Below are positions 9,406 to 26,760 of a stretch of 31,637 nt of DNA, one piece after another. A program made the translations under genes and the position numbers. Within the stretch, counting starts at the first letter, position 1; every line of letters starts with the position of its first letter. This DNA is from a virus. The notes beneath the pieces were generated by a model. It saw only the letters and a list, made by a program, of their open reading frames with translations, made no database searches and was not told the origin of the DNA. The stretch spans positions 1 to 31,637 of IMG/VR virus record IMGVR_UViG_3300036045_000049; one strand, 5' to 3'.

Positions 9406-9413
9406 GGCCGAAA

Positions 9414-9451
9414 CGCGCCACTACGGCGCGTCTGCGGGTAATTTGCCCGCA
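9414..9451 (+). promoter_or_regulatory. Two stacked hairpins between early genes
   Basis: CGCGCC-n5-GGCGCG (9414-9430) is followed after 2 nt by TGCGGG-n7-CCCGCA (9433-9451). No U-tract follows, so RNA stabilisation or processing is more likely than termination. Confidence 0.4.
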
Positions 9452-9487
9452 CTGATGAGGCCAGTTTGCCGACGACAAGGAGATACC

Positions 9488-12009: not shown

Positions 12010-12065
12010 CCCCGCCCGCCGTGTAACTAGCTCGTTGCTAGCCAAGCGGCGGGCAGGGGTTTATT
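12010..12065 (+). terminator. Nested-hairpin terminator before serine recombinase
   Basis: An outer GC stem (CCCCGCCCGCCG at 12010-12021 with CGGCGGGC-A-GGGG at 12047-12059) encloses CTAGC/GCTAG (12027-12041), then TTTATT. It separates the small early genes from the recombinase gene. Confidence 0.75.
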
Positions 12066-12079
12066 CTCACGGTGCCACT

Positions 12080-12835
12080 ATGCAGGAATGCGTTATTTAC
12101 GCACGCTTTTCTCCTCGGCCCAACGCGGCCGAGTGCGACAGCATCGAAACGCAAATTAAAGATTTGACCGCGTTTGCTGCGCGGCAGAAATGGCAGGTTG
12201 TCGCGGAGTTCTCGGACGCCGACCAATCTGGCGACGACTACCACCGGCAAGGACTTTGGGACGCCATGGCCAAACTGAATCGCGGGCAAATTCTTCTTGT
12301 GCGCGACATTTCCCGCCTTGCCCGCGATGAAATTCTCGGTGGTATGATCGCCCAGCACGTCAAAAAGAAGGGCGCTCGCATCGTTGCGTCACAACAGGGG
12401 GACACGCCCGAAACACCTAGCGCCACGTTTATTCGCTCGATCATGTTTGCGTTCGGCGCGTTTCAGAAGGCGATGATTGCCGCGCAGGTGCGGGCGGGCA
12501 TGAGGCGACGGCAGGCCGAGGGGGACAAAATGGGCGGGGTTGCGCCGTATGGTTACTGCCTCGACCCGGCCAATCCCAAGCGCTACATCGAAGCGCCCGA
12601 AGAGCAGAAACTCATCCGTCGTATTGTGGCCATGAGCTACGTTGCCACCACCAGCACACCGGCACGGATTGCTCGGAAATTAAACCAGGACGGCGTGAAA
12701 TCTCGTTGCGGCGGTCGTTGGCATCACACCACGATCTACAACATCCTACGACGGGCCGGGCGGTGTGAGGATACTTGGAACCGCGCGAAGAAACGCAGGA
12801 AAGCGGTTGACTTTGCTTCCTTGCTCAACCGCTAA
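12080..12835 (+). CDS. Serine recombinase (resolvase/invertase family)
   Basis: A 251-residue protein with an N-terminal resolvase domain. It opens CVIYARFSPRP, with Ser11 as the likely nucleophile, followed by the conserved LLVRDISRLARD (about residues 72-84). A helical linker of GMRRRQAEG type and a recombinase domain (about 150-230, GVAPYGYCLD, ARKLNQDGVKSR) follow. It is shorter than large integrases and lacks their extended C-terminal coiled coil. It could act as an invertase, resolvase or minimal integrase. It converges on the tyrosine integrase, and the two stop codons overlap by 4 nt. Confidence 0.85.
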   Translation: MQECVIYARFSPRPNAAECDSIETQIKDLTAFAARQKWQVVAEFSDADQSGDDYHRQGLWDAMAKLNRGQILLVRDISRLARDEILGGMIAQHVKKKGARIVASQQGDTPETPSATFIRSIMFAFGAFQKAMIAAQVRAGMRRRQAEGDKMGGVAPYGYCLDPANPKRYIEAPEEQKLIRRIVAMSYVATTSTPARIARKLNQDGVKSRCGGRWHHTTIYNILRRAGRCEDTWNRAKKRRKAVDFASLLNR

Positions 12836-13659
12836 CCCGTCAATCTCGGCGGCAGCGTAGGTTTCGGCCGCACGATTTTCGGGTCCAGATAGCATTTTTC
12901 GGCCAGCCCTGGCGCGGCGTGCCCCAAGTGCCGCCAGCCCATGCCGGGGTGCGAAGCCTCGACGTAACTGGCCGATGCGCGGCGTAACCATTTCATGCTG
13001 CCGTTTTCCATCTTGGCCCACCGTTTTAGCCTGCGAAACACCGCATAAAATCCGTTTCGGGTTTGTGTGAGCAGCGGCCAGATCGTCCCGGTCTTGCGCC
13101 CATTCAGATAACTCTCGATAGCCTCCATCGTCTCTGGTCGAAGCTGCACGCGATGGGTTCGACCGGTCTTTCGCTGCACGATGGACAGCGAACCATCCGG
13201 CCAAATGTCTTGGCGCTCGATGGAGAGCAAATCACCCAGCCGCAGGGCGGTATCGTAAGCGGCCAACAGCAGTGACTTCCAATACAACGGATTGTTCAGG
13301 TAGTTCGCGGCCCACAAAAGGCGTTGCATGTCGTCAATAGTGAACGCCGTTGGCACGTTTTCCGGCACGCGCACCGAACGCAGTTTTTGCGGCAGGTCGC
13401 ACAAATCGTTATCGGCCGCCCAGCGCCAGAGCGTCACCAGCATGCGCCGCCGCCCTCGCACGGTTTCCGGCTTGCGGCCATTCTCGGCTAGCCATTCGAG
13501 AAACCGATTCACTTTGTCCGGCTGCAAATCCTCCACACTGGCCACGTAGCCGAGGTGGCGCGAGAACAAATTGACGGCATTCGTTAATTGCGCGATGTAC
13601 CCGGCAGACACGTCGCGGGAGAGGGAGAAATCCCCCAGCAAGGCGGAAAGTGTAGGCAT
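12832..13659 (-). CDS. int: Tyrosine integrase
   Basis: A 275-residue phage integrase. Residues 1-100 form the SAM-like core-binding domain. The catalytic domain shows Arg140 (TALRLGDLLSIE), Lys164 (QRKTGR), an Arg226 box in which the usual first His is Lys223 (KWLRRAS), His247 (LGHAAPG) and the nucleophile Tyr257 (EKCYLDP). It catalyses integration at attP/attB. Starting 84 nt from the tRNA-Leu-like sequence places it beside its likely attP. Its gene points away from that site, towards the serine recombinase. Confidence 0.88.
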   Translation of the reverse strand: MPTLSALLGDFSLSRDVSAGYIAQLTNAVNLFSRHLGYVASVEDLQPDKVNRFLEWLAENGRKPETVRGRRRMLVTLWRWAADNDLCDLPQKLRSVRVPENVPTAFTIDDMQRLLWAANYLNNPLYWKSLLLAAYDTALRLGDLLSIERQDIWPDGSLSIVQRKTGRTHRVQLRPETMEAIESYLNGRKTGTIWPLLTQTRNGFYAVFRRLKRWAKMENGSMKWLRRASASYVEASHPGMGWRHLGHAAPGLAEKCYLDPKIVRPKPTLPPRLTG

Positions 13660-13743: not shown

Positions 13744-13816
13744 GCCGGGGAATTACGCGCTAGCTTCAGGAGCTAGTGGGCGCAAGCCCGTGTGGGTTCA
13801 AGTCCCACCTTCGGCA
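13744..13816 (+). tRNA. tRNA-Leu(CAG)-like sequence lacking the D arm
   Basis: Acceptor strands GCCGGGG (13744-13750) and CTTCGGC (13809-13815) pair with two G-U wobbles, and the discriminator is A. The anticodon arm is CTAGC-TTCAGGA-GCTAG with anticodon CAG. A Leu-type long variable arm follows (GGGC-GCAA-GCCC), then a perfect T arm (GTGGG-TTCAAGT-CCCAC). Only 9 nt (13751-13759) connect acceptor and anticodon stems, so the D arm is missing. GGAATT and ACGCGC of a normal tRNA-Leu 5' half are still visible around the gap. CCA is not encoded. It may be a remnant, an att sequence or a true D-armless tRNA. Confidence 0.55.
13756..13816. other. Probable attP core (3' part of tRNA-Leu)
   Basis: 61 nt from CGCGC to the discriminator base match the 3' two thirds of a bacterial tRNA-Leu(CAG) gene. 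The block lies 97 nt from the start of the tyrosine integrase. Tyrosine integrases commonly use tRNA 3' ends as attachment sites and restore the host gene on insertion. That it is an att site is inferred from this arrangement. Confidence 0.65.
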
Positions 13817-15260: not shown

Positions 15261-15974
15261 ATGTGCGACTTTTTATCCGCCCTCGTATTCAGCGACGGCA
15301 AAATTTTCAGCGACCCGGAACACACGGACAGCCACAGCGATTTGATTCTCGTGAAGGGACTCGACGATTCGCGCCCGCTGGAAACGCGCGGATGGATTCG
15401 CGTCGAATTCAAGCCGGACCACGACGACACGCTCGACCAGCCGGAAACGTACAAGCTGAAAGTCGATGAAACGTCAACGCCCGCATGGTTCGACGACGCC
15501 ATGCGGTTCGACATCACCGAGCGGTTGCGCGAGCAAGTCGAAAAAATGATCGTGCGCGACAGCCGCGAAATTCTGCTTGGTGGCTGCTGGATTTTGGCGC
15601 GCGGGGCAAAGGTAGCGAGCGTGAAGAATGGGCGCGTGCGAGCGATGTTTGATAGCCAAGCAACGTTGTGGGGCAACAGCCACGCGACGTTGTTTGACAA
15701 CAGCCACGCGACGTTGTTTGACAACAGCCACGCGACGTTGTTTGACAACAGCCAAGCGACGTTGCGGGAAAACAGCCACGCGACGTTGTACGGCAACAGC
15801 CAAGCGGCGTTGCGGGGCAACAGCCAAGCGACGTTGCGGGAAAACAGCCACGCGACGTTGTACGGCAACAGCCAAGCGGCGTTGCGGGGCAACAGCCAAG
15901 CGACGTTGCGGGGCAACAGCCAAGCGACGTTGTTTGGCAACGGGGCGAAGTTAATTGATGAGCGGATTAAGTAA
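15261..15974 (+). CDS. Protein with C-terminal 8-residue repeats (beta-solenoid-like)
   Basis: A 237-residue protein. Residues 1-130 form a globular domain of unknown family (MCDFLSALVFSDGKIFSD, then FKPDHDDTLDQPETY, and a segment ending ILLGGCWIL). Residues 131-226 are twelve 8-residue repeats of the type N-S-[HQ]-A-[TA]-L-x-[GDE], for example NSHATLFD three times in a row. Short repeats with small residues at fixed places are typical of beta-solenoids. The first gene of the cassette that also carries csrA. GGAAAGG lies upstream. Role unknown; DNA mimicry, scaffold or surface binding are guesses. Confidence 0.75.
   Translation: MCDFLSALVFSDGKIFSDPEHTDSHSDLILVKGLDDSRPLETRGWIRVEFKPDHDDTLDQPETYKLKVDETSTPAWFDDAMRFDITERLREQVEKMIVRDSREILLGGCWILARGAKVASVKNGRVRAMFDSQATLWGNSHATLFDNSHATLFDNSHATLFDNSQATLRENSHATLYGNSQAALRGNSQATLRENSHATLYGNSQAALRGNSQATLRGNSQATLFGNGAKLIDERIK
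15651..15938 (+). repeat. Twelve tandem 24-bp coding repeats
   Basis: The repeat region of the preceding protein. Each 24-bp unit begins AACAGCCA (one GATAGCCA) followed by [CA]GCG[AG]CGTTG. Three identical units come first, then a higher-order 72-bp block (RE, YG, RG units) is present twice. High nucleotide identity indicates recent expansion by recombination or slippage. Confidence 0.9.
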
Positions 15975-16619: not shown

Positions 16620-17518
16620 ACGCAACCGCCGACCCGGTGGCCGTGGTGAGCGGCAGTGGACAAATCTACGAATGCACGAACGACGAATACCACGCGGACC
16701 ATTCGCGCATCAGTCGGTCGATGCTGGAAGTGTTCCGCGAAAGTCCGGCACGTTATCACGGGCGGTTTGTCGCGGGCACGATTCCGGCACCAGAGCCGAC
16801 GCCAGCGATGGAGTTTGGTTCGTGGTTTCACGAATACGCGCTCGAGCCGGACAAATACCTTGCCGAGCGGATTATCGCGCCGCAATTCGGGCCGGACGGC
16901 GAACGATGGAATCGGGCGAAGAAACTACACAAGGAGGCGTGGGAGGAACTGGAAACCAAAGCCAACGGTAGGGGCATTATCGACCACGACACGCACTTGC
17001 GGTTGTTCGACATGCGGCGCGCAATCGGCCGCAACGAGAATGCCAAAGCGTTGATAGGCTTGGACAATGGGCCGGTGGAGCAATCCATTTTTTGGGTGGA
17101 TGAGGAAATCGGCCTGACGTTGAAATGCCGCCGCGATAAGGTCTGCCGCGACGGCACGCTGATCGTGGACCTGAAAACGTGCCACGATTCTTCGCCGGAA
17201 GCGTTTGCCCGCGATGCGGTGAATTTCGGCTACCACCGGCAAGCGGCGTTTTATCTGGACGGGCACGCGGCGGTATTCGGCGTCGATGCCATCGGCATGG
17301 TGTTTGTCGCGGTGAGCAAGCAGCAGCCGCACGACGTTGCTTGCTACGAACTCGATTACGACGCGATTGCCTTGGGGCGGCAACAGAATCGCGCATCGCT
17401 GTGGAAGTTATCGGAGTGCATCGAAAGCGGCGAGTGGTTCGCCGCGCACGAACGGCAGATCAACACGGTGTCGCTGCCTAAGTGGGCGTTTTATCAAGAC
17501 CAATGGGAGGTAGCTTAA
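16616..17518 (+). CDS. PD-(D/E)XK exonuclease, RecE/exonuclease VIII type
   Basis: A 300-residue nuclease of the PDDEXK superfamily. His72 (GSWFHEYALEP), Glu155 (VEQSIFW), Asp174 (KCRRDKV), Asp185-x-Lys187 (LIVDLKT) and the GYHRQAAFY helix (205-213) are the expected active-site elements of phage RecE-like 5'-3' exonucleases. These resect double-stranded ends to leave 3' single strands for annealing by a partner protein, which is probably the next gene. Coupled by ATGA to the upstream gene, and 2 nt from the downstream start. Confidence 0.85.
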   Translation: MNATADPVAVVSGSGQIYECTNDEYHADHSRISRSMLEVFRESPARYHGRFVAGTIPAPEPTPAMEFGSWFHEYALEPDKYLAERIIAPQFGPDGERWNRAKKLHKEAWEELETKANGRGIIDHDTHLRLFDMRRAIGRNENAKALIGLDNGPVEQSIFWVDEEIGLTLKCRRDKVCRDGTLIVDLKTCHDSSPEAFARDAVNFGYHRQAAFYLDGHAAVFGVDAIGMVFVAVSKQQPHDVACYELDYDAIALGRQQNRASLWKLSECIESGEWFAAHERQINTVSLPKWAFYQDQWEVA

Positions 17519-17520
17519 TC

Positions 17521-18633
17521 ATGGCAACGGCTGAATTACTCGACCACAACGACGAACTAACTGAAGTTAGCTATTCGTCACTGGAACAACTTAACCGCTC
17601 CGAAATCGATGTGCAAATTTCCACCGCCAAACGCTACCCGCGCAGCATCAAAGCGTTCAAGCAGCAGGCGATGGAAATGGCCACTCTCGATGAAGACACC
17701 GCCGCCAGCATGTTCTATGTGCTGCCGCGTGGTGGCAAAAAGATTGAAGGGCCGAGCGTTCGCATGGCCGAAGTGGTTGGCAGTTGCTACGGCAATCTTC
17801 GCTACGGCGCACGCATCGTAAGCGTTGATGACAAGTTCGTGACGGCGCAAGGCGCTTGCCACGACCTCGAAAAGAACATCGCCATTAACTACGAATCGAA
17901 GCGGCGTATCACCGACAAACACGGCAAACGGTACAACGACGACATGATTCAAACGACCGGCAATGCGGCGGCATCTATCGCATTGCGCGAGGCAATCTTT
18001 CGCGTGGTGCCACGTTCGCTATTTAAGGCGATTTACGAGGAAGCCAAGCTAACCAGCGTCGGCAAGGCCACGTCGATGAACGAGAAGCGGCACAAGGCCG
18101 TTGATTGGTTTCGCAAGGCAGGCGCAACCGATGCACAGTTATTTACTTTCCTTGGACGCGCAGGCATCGACGAAATTACCATCGACGACTTGATTACCCT
18201 TCGTGGCTTGGTGACGGCAATTAAGGATGGCGAAACGACCATTGAAGATGCGTTGGCCGTGCGGGAATCGACGGCGAGTAAAGTTCACGCTTCGCCGCTA
18301 AATCAACCGCCAAGCAGCAAAGGCAAAAACCCGGCCGCCGAGAAATCGAACTCCGAAGTTCACGCGGAAGAAGCGGTCGCGACGGAGCAACCGCAAGCCG
18401 AAACCAAACCTGACCGCTGGGCCGACGTGCGGGCGGCGTTCGACGAGTGCAGCACACTCGAAGAAGTGGCCGACCGGCAACACGAATTCACGACGAATTG
18501 CGCAAGCGATGCCGACGCGAACAAGATTCGTGAGGTTGCGGAAATGGCACGGGCGAGGCTGGCACCGCCAAAAAGCGGTAAGGGAGCAAAGCAGCGGCAG
18601 TTGATGGAAACAACCGACAATGTGCCCGCCTAG
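17521..18633 (+). CDS. Probable recombination/ssDNA-annealing partner protein
   Basis: A 370-residue protein from ATG 17521. Residues 20-210 form a conserved domain: EIDVQISTAKRYPRS, ASMFYVLPRGGKKIEGPSVR and GNAAASIALREAIFRVVPR are characteristic of a phage family usually encoded beside RecE-like nucleases. The C-terminal third is disordered (Lys/Ala/Glu-rich). By position it is likely the single-strand annealing or nuclease-partner protein. The annealing role is inferred from the gene pair, not from an active-site motif. Confidence 0.65.
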   Translation: MATAELLDHNDELTEVSYSSLEQLNRSEIDVQISTAKRYPRSIKAFKQQAMEMATLDEDTAASMFYVLPRGGKKIEGPSVRMAEVVGSCYGNLRYGARIVSVDDKFVTAQGACHDLEKNIAINYESKRRITDKHGKRYNDDMIQTTGNAAASIALREAIFRVVPRSLFKAIYEEAKLTSVGKATSMNEKRHKAVDWFRKAGATDAQLFTFLGRAGIDEITIDDLITLRGLVTAIKDGETTIEDALAVRESTASKVHASPLNQPPSSKGKNPAAEKSNSEVHAEEAVATEQPQAETKPDRWADVRAAFDECSTLEEVADRQHEFTTNCASDADANKIREVAEMARARLAPPKSGKGAKQRQLMETTDNVPA

Positions 18634-18650: not shown

Positions 18651-18712
18651 GGCGTGAAGGGTGCCGGGCAGGCTCATAACCTGCCTTGACCGTTCAACTC
18701 GGTTCCACGCCA
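18651..18712 (+). tRNA. tRNA-Met(CAU)-like sequence lacking the D arm
   Basis: Acceptor strands GGCGTGA (18651-18657) and CCACGCC (18705-18711) pair at six of seven positions, discriminator A. The anticodon arm is GCAGG-CTCATAA-CCTGC with anticodon CAU, and the T arm is GACCG-TTCAACT-CGGTT. Only 10 nt join the acceptor and anticodon stems where a normal D arm with linkers needs about 19. The variable region is 3 nt and CCA is not encoded. Total 62 nt. It lies between the annealing-protein gene and the initiator gene. Could be a functional minimal tRNA, a decoy or a decayed gene. Confidence 0.45.
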
Positions 18713-18758: not shown

Positions 18759-19490
18759 ATGGCGGGCGACTTTGTAATGGTGCAGTTCGCTACTCCGCGC
18801 AAGCCGGAAGTGATGAGAATTGCTACCGAATTAAACATCGACGCGGCGCATGCCTTTGGCCTTTGCGTAATAGCATGGATGTGGTTCGACGAGCAGACGG
18901 AAGATGGTCGCGCAGTTGGCGCGACAGATGCGATGCTGGATGCGGTTGTATGTCGCGCCGGGTTCTCCGATGCGCTGCGCAATGTTGGCTGGCTACATGT
19001 CCGCGATGGCGCACTTGTGGTCCCCAACTTTGACCGGCTCATGGGCGATTCCGCAAAAAAACGTGCGAAAAACACGAAGCGCCAACAGCAACACCGCCGT
19101 AACGCCACTGTCACAAAAACGTCGCGCCACGAGCGCGACAAAAGCGCGACCAAAGAAGAGAAGAGAAGAGAAGAGAAGAGAGAAACTACTAACGTAGTTT
19201 CTCACCCCCTACCCCCTTGTCTCGAAACGGAGAAATTTCGCTCCGCTTGGGAACGCTGGGAGCGGCATCGGCGGGAAATCGGCAAGCCGCTGAAACCGAC
19301 GATGCGGCAATCGCAACTGGCAATGCTCGCAGCGAAGGGAGAATCCGATGCCGTGGCCATGATTGACCACACGATTGCGATGGGGTGGCAGGGGCTTCGC
19401 GCACCGGAACCGGAAACGCGTGGTAGCACACCGCAGCAGCCGCCGCGCAAAACACTCGTTGACCTGAACCGCGAACTTTACGGGGAATGA
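18759..19490 (+). CDS. Replication initiator-like protein with internal repeat
   Basis: A 243-residue protein from ATG 18759, with AAGGAAG upstream. Residues 1-100 resemble the winged-helix N-terminal domain of phage replication proteins (MVQFATPRKPEVMRIATELN, then AVVCRAGFSDALRNVGWLHV). A highly basic linker (SAKKRAKNTKRQQQHRR) and a Glu/Lys/Arg-rich tract follow. The C-terminal domain (about 160-240) has SAWERWERHRREIGKPLKPT, found in phage O/DnaD-like proteins. It overlaps the next gene by ATGA. Assigned as initiator by domain layout and position before a helicase-loader-like gene. Confidence 0.65.
   Translation: MAGDFVMVQFATPRKPEVMRIATELNIDAAHAFGLCVIAWMWFDEQTEDGRAVGATDAMLDAVVCRAGFSDALRNVGWLHVRDGALVVPNFDRLMGDSAKKRAKNTKRQQQHRRNATVTKTSRHERDKSATKEEKRREEKRETTNVVSHPLPPCLETEKFRSAWERWERHRREIGKPLKPTMRQSQLAMLAAKGESDAVAMIDHTIAMGWQGLRAPEPETRGSTPQQPPRKTLVDLNRELYGE
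19156..19203. repeat. AAGAG x5 repeat followed by a perfect hairpin, candidate origin
   Basis: Five perfect AAGAG units (19156-19180) run into GAGAAACTAC-TAAC-GTAGTTTCTC (19180-19203), a 10-bp palindrome with a 4-nt loop. Both lie inside the initiator-like gene. In lambdoid phages the origin lies within the O initiator gene. Because a unit of 5 is not a multiple of 3, gain or loss of one copy would also shift the frame. Confidence 0.45.
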
Positions 19491-25313: not shown

Positions 25314-25511
25314 ATGGGGAACTCAGAAATCAACGTGTTGGGCCGACTGAACGGCCCGAAGGCGCGAATAGCTGCGGACTTCGAGAGCCGAGTAGCGCGC
25401 GCCAAACACCTCGCCGGTTGTCGGTGGTTCGGGCTGTTCCCGGCCACCGGCAACCATTTTGTGTGGAGGAAAGATGAAAGTTTATCGCCTCGAATTGGTT
25501 GGCTTCGATGA
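25314..25511 (+). CDS. Small protein overlapping the effector start
   Basis: A 65-residue frame beginning MGNSEINVLGRLNGPKARIA right after the nuclease-like stop (TGA-ATG). It contains KHLAGCRWFGLFPATGNHFV. The last 38 nt overlap the start of the TnpB/Cas12-like gene. An alternative frame from 25310 ends in an ATGA overlap with the effector, but its Arg/Pro-rich composition looks like a shadow. Function unknown. Confidence 0.45.
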   Translation: MGNSEINVLGRLNGPKARIAADFESRVARAKHLAGCRWFGLFPATGNHFVWRKDESLSPRIGWLR

Positions 25512-26760
25512 TCGTGATCTACGGCAATCGCTCTACGATTTAGCCAAGGACTGCCAAGCAATCGTAAATCGTGTGTGGCAAGTTTGGGAATGCTGGCACG
25601 TTGCCAACGATTCCCGCGACAAACTCATCGCGCACTTGAACGCCGATAAGTCGTGGCGCGAAGGCGGCAAGCAGGGGCCGCGCCCCCAATGGCCGGTGGA
25701 CTGTATGCCGCGCATTCCGGGCACGAAGAACGCCAAGGGAAAAGAGTGTTCGCTGCGCGATAAGCTGTACGCGGACATTACCGCGAAGTTCCCGCACGTA
25801 CATGTTCGCGTGGTTGTATTGCTGCTAAACATCACCTGCAAAAAAATTACTTCCGGTAAATCGGCCAGCGGCAGCCTACCGGCATGGGTGGCGATTTTAC
25901 TGAATCAGCAATCGCGGCCCAGTACCACGCGGCCCATTCCGATACCGTTCGACTCGCCGAACTCCAAAATCGTGCCTGGGGCGAGCGATGAAGAAAACGC
26001 ATCGCTGTACATTCGCTTGCACCGGGCGGCCGACAAGCCACGCAGCGTATCGGCGTTTAGTAAATTCACGTTGAAAACGACGGGACCGGCGGCGAGATAC
26101 GTGAAGCCGATGAACCGGTTAGCTACCGGTGAATGGTCGTACAAGGGTTCGAGTTTGTATTACGACGACCGCAAAAAAAAATGGTTTGCGCTAGTTGTCG
26201 CGGAAGCGCCGCCCGGCCCGCAAGTGGAGTCGCAGCCGGGGAGCGTGCTGGTGTTGCGCTGCGGCTATCGGCACCCGATTCAGTTGCGCGTGAATGGCCG
26301 CCGCCGATTCTTGCGCGGGTTCGGCCAGGGGCGCGCGATCGAAGCAACGCGGCGGCAGTTGCTAACGCAGCGTTGGAGCCGCCAAGAGAACTACCGCGTG
26401 GCCGGGCACGCGAACAAAGGGCACGGCAGGCAGCGGGCGTTGGGGCCGGTGTTTTTGTTGTCGCGGCGCTGGAAGGATTTTGTGAAACGGTATAATCATT
26501 CACTTACCGCCGAGATAGTGGCGTTGTGTTTGCGGGAAGGCGTGGGCCGCGTGGTGTATTGCCAGCCGAGTGGCGGTCGTTTTCTTTCCGAGGCCGGTAA
26601 AGTTCCGGGGCGCGATGACGCCACGGGTTGGGACTTTTACCAGATTTATTCGTTGCTGGCGTACAAGTGCGATCGGAGTGGCGTGATTTTGGAGTGCCGC
26701 AAACCGAAGGAAACCCGTGTGGTGAAAGCGGTTAAGAACAGAATGTTGGCGAAGGCGTGA
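25474..26760 (+). CDS. TnpB/Cas12-like RNA-guided DNA-binding effector, predicted nuclease-dead
   Basis: A 428-residue protein from ATG 25474 (GGAGG 4 nt upstream). The N-terminal half is basic and helical. The C-terminal half follows the TnpB/Cas12 RuvC layout: a strand YYDDRKKKWFALVVAE (about 229-244), RuvC-I-like SVLVLRCGYRHP (257-268), a basic helix with GHGRQRAL (316-323), the RWKDFVKRYNHSLTAEIV helix (332-349), RuvC-II-like VVYCQPSGG (360-368) and WDFYQIYSLLAYKC (386-399). In TnpB the RuvC-I Asp aligns with Arg262 and the RuvC-II Glu with Cys363. The zinc finger and RuvC-III Asp are absent, because the protein ends soon after. It likely binds guided DNA without cutting, as in TldR proteins and Cas12m-like effectors. 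No transposase or IS ends seen. Confidence 0.7.
   Translation: MKVYRLELVGFDDRDLRQSLYDLAKDCQAIVNRVWQVWECWHVANDSRDKLIAHLNADKSWREGGKQGPRPQWPVDCMPRIPGTKNAKGKECSLRDKLYADITAKFPHVHVRVVVLLLNITCKKITSGKSASGSLPAWVAILLNQQSRPSTTRPIPIPFDSPNSKIVPGASDEENASLYIRLHRAADKPRSVSAFSKFTLKTTGPAARYVKPMNRLATGEWSYKGSSLYYDDRKKKWFALVVAEAPPGPQVESQPGSVLVLRCGYRHPIQLRVNGRRRFLRGFGQGRAIEATRRQLLTQRWSRQENYRVAGHANKGHGRQRALGPVFLLSRRWKDFVKRYNHSLTAEIVALCLREGVGRVVYCQPSGGRFLSEAGKVPGRDDATGWDFYQIYSLLAYKCDRSGVILECRKPKETRVVKAVKNRMLAKA

Follow-up and report, generated by a model that had tools for sequence, protein, structure and literature searches.

The window, by which we mean the whole stretch of 31,637 bases of viral DNA that was analyzed, carries a 62-nt tRNA-like element of Met(CAU) type that has no D arm (hereafter, the Met-type element). 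The element occupies a 125-nt gap on the coding strand between two same-strand genes, one of them a replication initiation gene (Table 1), and an exonuclease VIII gene lies upstream, placing the element in a recombination-replication gene cluster. Near the element, no terminator or promoter consensus was found. Repeated copies of its palindrome in the window did not exceed chance in an operator test, which argues against an operator family. A second tRNA-like element without a D arm, of Leu(CAG) type, adjoins a tyrosine integrase gene in the same window. Other features of the window include a candidate type II hammerhead ribozyme at 9406–9470, which scores 35.7 bits against a gathering score of 37 and contains the core motifs GAAAC, GUC, and CUGAUGA, a weak TnpB-family match at 25459–26760 (NCBIfam guided_TnpB, 4e-6, below the cut-off; phrog_506 transposase, 1.7e-4), and an ORF at 15261–15974 whose C-terminal half carries a short, degenerate repeat (NSHATL.. 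/ NSQATL..).

Table 1. Features of the window and members of the phage tRNA-Arg(ACG) family discussed in the text; positions without a prefix are those of the window.
Feature	Position	Strand	Basis
Tyrosine integrase gene, adjoining the Leu-type element	12832..13659	-	Annotation match
Leu(CAG)-type tRNA-like element, D-armless, 9-nt connector, long variable arm	13744..13816	+	Rfam, parse
Upstream gene, phrog_3657, function unknown	17482..18633	+	Annotation match
Met(CAU)-type tRNA-like element, D-armless, 62 nt	18651..18712	+	Sequence parse, simulation
Acceptor 5' strand, GGCGTGA	18651..18657	+	6/7 pair with 18705-18711
Connector in place of the D arm, AGGGTGCCGG, 10 nt	18658..18667	+	Sequence parse
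Anticodon arm, GCAGG CTCATAA CCTGC	18668..18684	+	Parse and fold prediction
Variable loop, CTT, 3 nt	18685..18687	+	Sequence parse
T arm, GACCG TTCAACT CGGTT	18688..18704	+	Parse; weak in context
Acceptor 3' strand, CCACGCC, and discriminator A; CCA not encoded	18705..18712	+	Sequence parse
Downstream replication initiation gene, phrog_2509	18759..19490	+	Annotation match
tRNA-Arg(ACG) family member	L051:2054-2133	-	
tRNA-Arg(ACG) family member	L076:466-547	-	
tRNA-Arg(ACG) family members	Loci L300-L390		
tRNA-Arg(ACG) family member, Rhizobium phage	MN988519.1:15122-15199		

The layout proposed for the Met-type element by an earlier sequence-only reading was confirmed, with an acceptor helix paired at six of seven positions, an anticodon arm, a T arm, and a 10-nt connector where the D arm would be. 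All six acceptor pairs are Watson-Crick and contiguous, the anticodon stem is fully paired (5/5, with eight pairs possible if G.U is allowed), and the T stem is likewise complete (5/5, one G.U) and closes a loop that matches TTCRANY. Compared with canonical tRNA (RF00005), the acceptor, anticodon, and T arms are present at tRNA spacing, while the D arm and U8 are absent, position 8, in the connector AGGGTGCCGG, being A. The element is like a canonical tRNA(CAU), elongator Met or Ile2, also in its CUCAUAA loop and discriminator A, but differs in its 3-nt variable loop, its weak predicted T arm, and the lack of an Rfam match. Neither the Rfam covariance model nor ARAGORN called it in the window, and with the search narrowed to 200 bases and the cut-off relaxed to E=5, the Rfam tRNA model still gave no match to it. 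Its CTCATAA loop and T arm are similar to those of phage CAU tRNAs, with a top 3'-half identity of 80% (n=176). Bacterial initiator tRNAs are distinguished by an unpaired 1-72 position and, in the anticodon stem, three G-C pairs in a row; this identity was rejected for the Met-type element, which has a G1-C72 pair and an A-U at 29-41 (stem GCAGG/CCTGC).

A second-order Markov simulation of the window yielded 355 D-armless-like matches in 97,347 simulated windows. The variable loop was at most 6 nt in 46 of these matches, corresponding to about 5e-4 per window, and six of the 46 had at least six Watson-Crick acceptor pairs, corresponding to about 6e-5 per window, at scan thresholds that were fixed post hoc, with the element already seen. 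At the same thresholds, the scan had zero matches in about 1.6 Mb of other phage DNA that had been taken without regard to tRNAs. The value of the acceptor pairing was gauged on real tRNA 3' halves, 10.6% of which had a spurious 5' strand pairing at 6/7 positions or more when G.U was counted, 1.6% one that formed six or more Watson-Crick pairs, and 0.6% a chance run of six Watson-Crick pairs from position 1. Since 6/7 pairing with G.U arises so readily, only the Watson-Crick run (0.6–1.6%) argues well for the 5' strand being part of the element. When CAU tRNAs having a short variable loop were sought, nearly all matches were ordinary phage tRNAs with D arms; some of these D-armed genes gave spurious D-armless registers, so a 6/7 acceptor with G.U is weak evidence.

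For the Met-type element folded alone, the minimum-energy structure contains all three helices (z = -2.2), but the T arm reaches a probability of just 0.35. Placed in 160 nt of mRNA, the element has predicted probabilities of about zero for its acceptor and T arms, as the anticodon hairpin is lengthened by the pairing of TGAA with TTCA and of GGT with ACC, and the predicted fold becomes a long imperfect hairpin that outcompetes both arms. In the same in-context test, about 4.6% of 259 real phage tRNAs perform as badly, and the tRNA reading is thus weakened but still possible. The Leu-type element retains its anticodon and T arms in the prediction made in context.

No close relative of the virus record was found in the collections searched, and BLAST in phages and plasmids returned no homolog of the Met-type element. 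A pattern scan of IMG/VR for its core gave no match, in a scan from which the window's own or near-identical records were possibly absent. Relatives reached through the replication protein, the terminase, and the phrog_3657 gene showed no syntenic copy. Most of the terminase relatives are devoid of tRNAs; ordinary tRNAs or partial pieces resembling tRNAs occur in a few, and a D-armless Met-type element in none. The partial pieces in L267 and L268, each at about 1500-1560, are a CAU piece that lacks the T arm and a 3' half like that of tRNA-Asn(GTT). Two terminase relatives come from Planctomycetota MAGs, which, together with the tRNA-Leu match described below, suggests that the phage may infect Planctomycetota. 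In a comparison with the tRNA(CAU) genes of 17 genomes from one Planctomycetota class, only short stretches match the Met-type element.

The occurrence of two D-armless tRNA-like elements in one phage, also put forward by the sequence-only reading, was supported, the Leu-type element scoring 30.9 bits against the Rfam tRNA model in an alignment that skips the D arm. The connectors, which had been described as equal in length, are not exactly so (9 nt in the Leu-type and 10 nt in the Met-type element). The 3' 62 nt of the Leu-type element share up to 92% identity with Planctomycetota tRNA-Leu genes, starting just past the missing D region, and its 5' part, GCCGGGGAATT, resembles a tRNA-Leu 5' half minus the D arm in comparison with L274 and L276. 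The start of the tyrosine integrase gene is about 85 bp away. The resemblance to a D-deleted bacterial tRNA-Leu and the nearby integrase indicate an attachment-site history, and the Leu-type element is best read as a probable att-associated derivative of tRNA-Leu with its D region deleted. A pattern scan of IMG/VR for its deletion junction, from which the window's own or near-identical records were again possibly absent, and a search of a genome collection for exact copies of the tRNA-Leu 3' part gave no match. A serine recombinase gene (12035-12835, +) lies tail to tail with the tyrosine integrase gene, with a 4-base overlap. Phage-borne tRNAs are known to complement a disrupted host tRNA in tRNA-dependent lysogeny (PMC10865867); the phage studied here likewise has an integrase and tRNA-type genes, a likeness relevant chiefly to the Leu-type element.

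A scan of control phage contigs revealed tRNA-like genes that are skipped by ARAGORN, some of them within tRNA arrays. A pattern scan found tRNA-Arg(ACG) genes of one layout in 93 IMG/VR contigs, consisting of a 7-bp acceptor, a 7–9 nt connector (mostly TAWCC..), an anticodon arm, a 20–25 nt region with GTARC.GG, which was required by the pattern used, and a T arm. ARAGORN overlapped one of the 93 members and missed the other 92, and the Rfam tRNA model detected one member, at 35.8 bits. In an alignment of 27 sequences, pairing holds in 99.2% of cells, and both sides have changed in 16 of the 19 pairs, in 134 cells compared with a shuffle average of 33; covariation is strong in all three arms. 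Because of this pairing and two-sided changes far above those of the shuffles, the family looks like a conserved, functional tRNA. Two further pairs may form between a CC in the connector and the GG that follows GTAAC, an arrangement resembling a D arm relocated around the anticodon arm; these two proposed pairs show almost no variation. In Rhizobium phage RHph_I1_18, an unannotated member is located between the annotated tRNA-Ile and tRNA-Phe genes. Similar D-less layouts, mostly of other Arg isotypes, were observed at L076:36-115 (TCT), L076:1713-1791 (TCG), L075:8276-8358 (TCT), L089:1265-1345 (TCG), and L137:1657-1738 (TAT), all of which ARAGORN also skips. The tRNA-Arg(ACG) family is widespread in phages and mostly unannotated, and no description of it was found in the literature, of which the coverage was incomplete. 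It shows that phage tRNAs without a standard D arm exist, which keeps the idea of the sequence-only reading alive in general. The Met-type element shares with this family a short connector in place of the D arm, but has a variable loop of 3 nt versus a 20–25 nt region with GTAAC.GG. Its membership in the family was rejected, as the family model matches the window only at the Leu-type element, and weakly (18 bits).

The explanation that we favor, with about an even chance of being right, is that the Met-type element is a relic of a tRNA(CAU) gene, elongator Met or Ile2-like, from which the D arm was deleted and which is now carried between two genes of the phage recombination-replication cluster. 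It is favored because all of the tRNA parts other than the D arm occur in order and correctly spaced where about 5e-4 such matches are expected per window, because the Leu-type companion, which is clearly tRNA-derived, shows the same kind of loss, and because L267 and L268 also hold partial tRNA-like pieces. The similar loop and T arm of phage CAU tRNAs and the position in a same-strand intergenic gap point the same way. Such a relic would be transcribed within the polycistronic recombination-replication mRNA, in which its anticodon hairpin would form robustly, while the acceptor-T minihelix, which may form transiently, could be a substrate for the host RNase P. RNase P recognizes acceptor-T helices. 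If the relic has any role, the most plausible one would be punctuation, the cutting of this mRNA by RNase P, which is more likely than translation; service as a translation adaptor is unlikely. Against the relic explanation stand the lack of an Rfam tRNA match and the competing in-context hairpin. With no relative carrying the element found, its descent from a full tRNA is not traceable, which also counts against a relic. A relic whose other arms are intact, moreover, requires a recent deletion or selection on the arms.

Alternatively, the tRNA likeness may be coincidental and the element a strong, unrelated hairpin, GGCAGG-N7-CCTGCC, which lies upstream of the replication gene within a longer, imperfect inverted repeat and would serve mRNA stability, as a leader structure, as a DNA operator, or for nothing at all. 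This is possible, if somewhat doubtful. In context, the prediction favors the long hairpin, the element has neither a homolog nor an Rfam or ARAGORN call, and rare matches are inflated by the post hoc thresholds and the many windows scanned. However, chance would produce such an arrangement in just about 5e-4 cases per window, or 6e-5 with the Watson-Crick acceptor, the T loop and anticodon loop both match the tRNA consensus at tRNA spacing, and the palindrome is neither repeated above chance nor accompanied by a terminator or promoter consensus.

It is unlikely that the Met-type element is an active D-armless tRNA or mimic, processed and CCA-tailed, which would either do the work of a minimal Met/Ile tRNA or lure host enzymes that cut or process tRNAs. 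Phage tRNAs are known to aid evasion of tRNA-targeting defenses (PMC10264068, PMC11555353), the D arm alone was lost twice in one phage with the acceptor, anticodon, and T arms retained, and a conserved phage tRNA family of another isotype also lacks the standard D arm. Nevertheless, no relative was found to show conservation of the element, position 8 is not U, the variable loop has 3 nt, the predicted T arm is weak, the model of the D-less Arg family does not match, and the integrase next to the Leu-type companion gives a better account of that companion. The broader proposal that the phage makes two active short D-armless tRNAs, minimal adaptors or bait for tRNA-attacking host enzymes, with D-arm loss selected in its lineage, is quite unlikely. 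A shared adaptive process of this kind, which the sequence-only reading had suggested (minimal tRNAs or decoys), was left unsupported, the Leu-type element pointing to an att history and the Met-type element having no integrase link or detectable homolog.

That the element is part of an attachment site, in which the phage carries for integration the 3' half of a host tRNA(CAU) gene and the 5' acceptor strand pairs by chance, is highly unlikely despite the tyrosine integrase and serine recombinase of the phage and the tRNA gene fragments commonly left behind by mobile elements (PMC9897764), as the element lies about 5 kb from the integrase, which the Leu-type element adjoins, the tRNA(CAU) genes of the 17 Planctomycetota genomes match it only in short stretches, and just about 0.6% of real tRNA 3' halves show a chance run of six contiguous Watson-Crick acceptor pairs. 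Like such fragments, it is a partial tRNA sequence in an integrase-bearing phage genome; unlike them, it has a 5' acceptor strand, no adjoining integrase, and no host tRNA match found.

Even as the relic that we favor, the Met-type element shows that tRNA tools overlook shortened tRNA-like phage genes. Were it functional, it would represent a D-armless tRNA in a bacterial virus, a layout otherwise best known from animal mitochondria, whose tRNAs, such as tRNA-Ser, can be D-armless (PMC7609411, PMC4013460). The mitochondrial tRNAs similarly have a short connector for the D arm and retain the other arms, but they have adapted partner proteins, whereas the Met-type element belongs to a bacterial virus, has a Met-type isotype, and is known from its sequence alone. 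A functional element would be a test of which tRNA parts the bacterial machinery requires. The tRNA-Arg(ACG) family, a by-product of this analysis, may matter more than the Met-type element itself.
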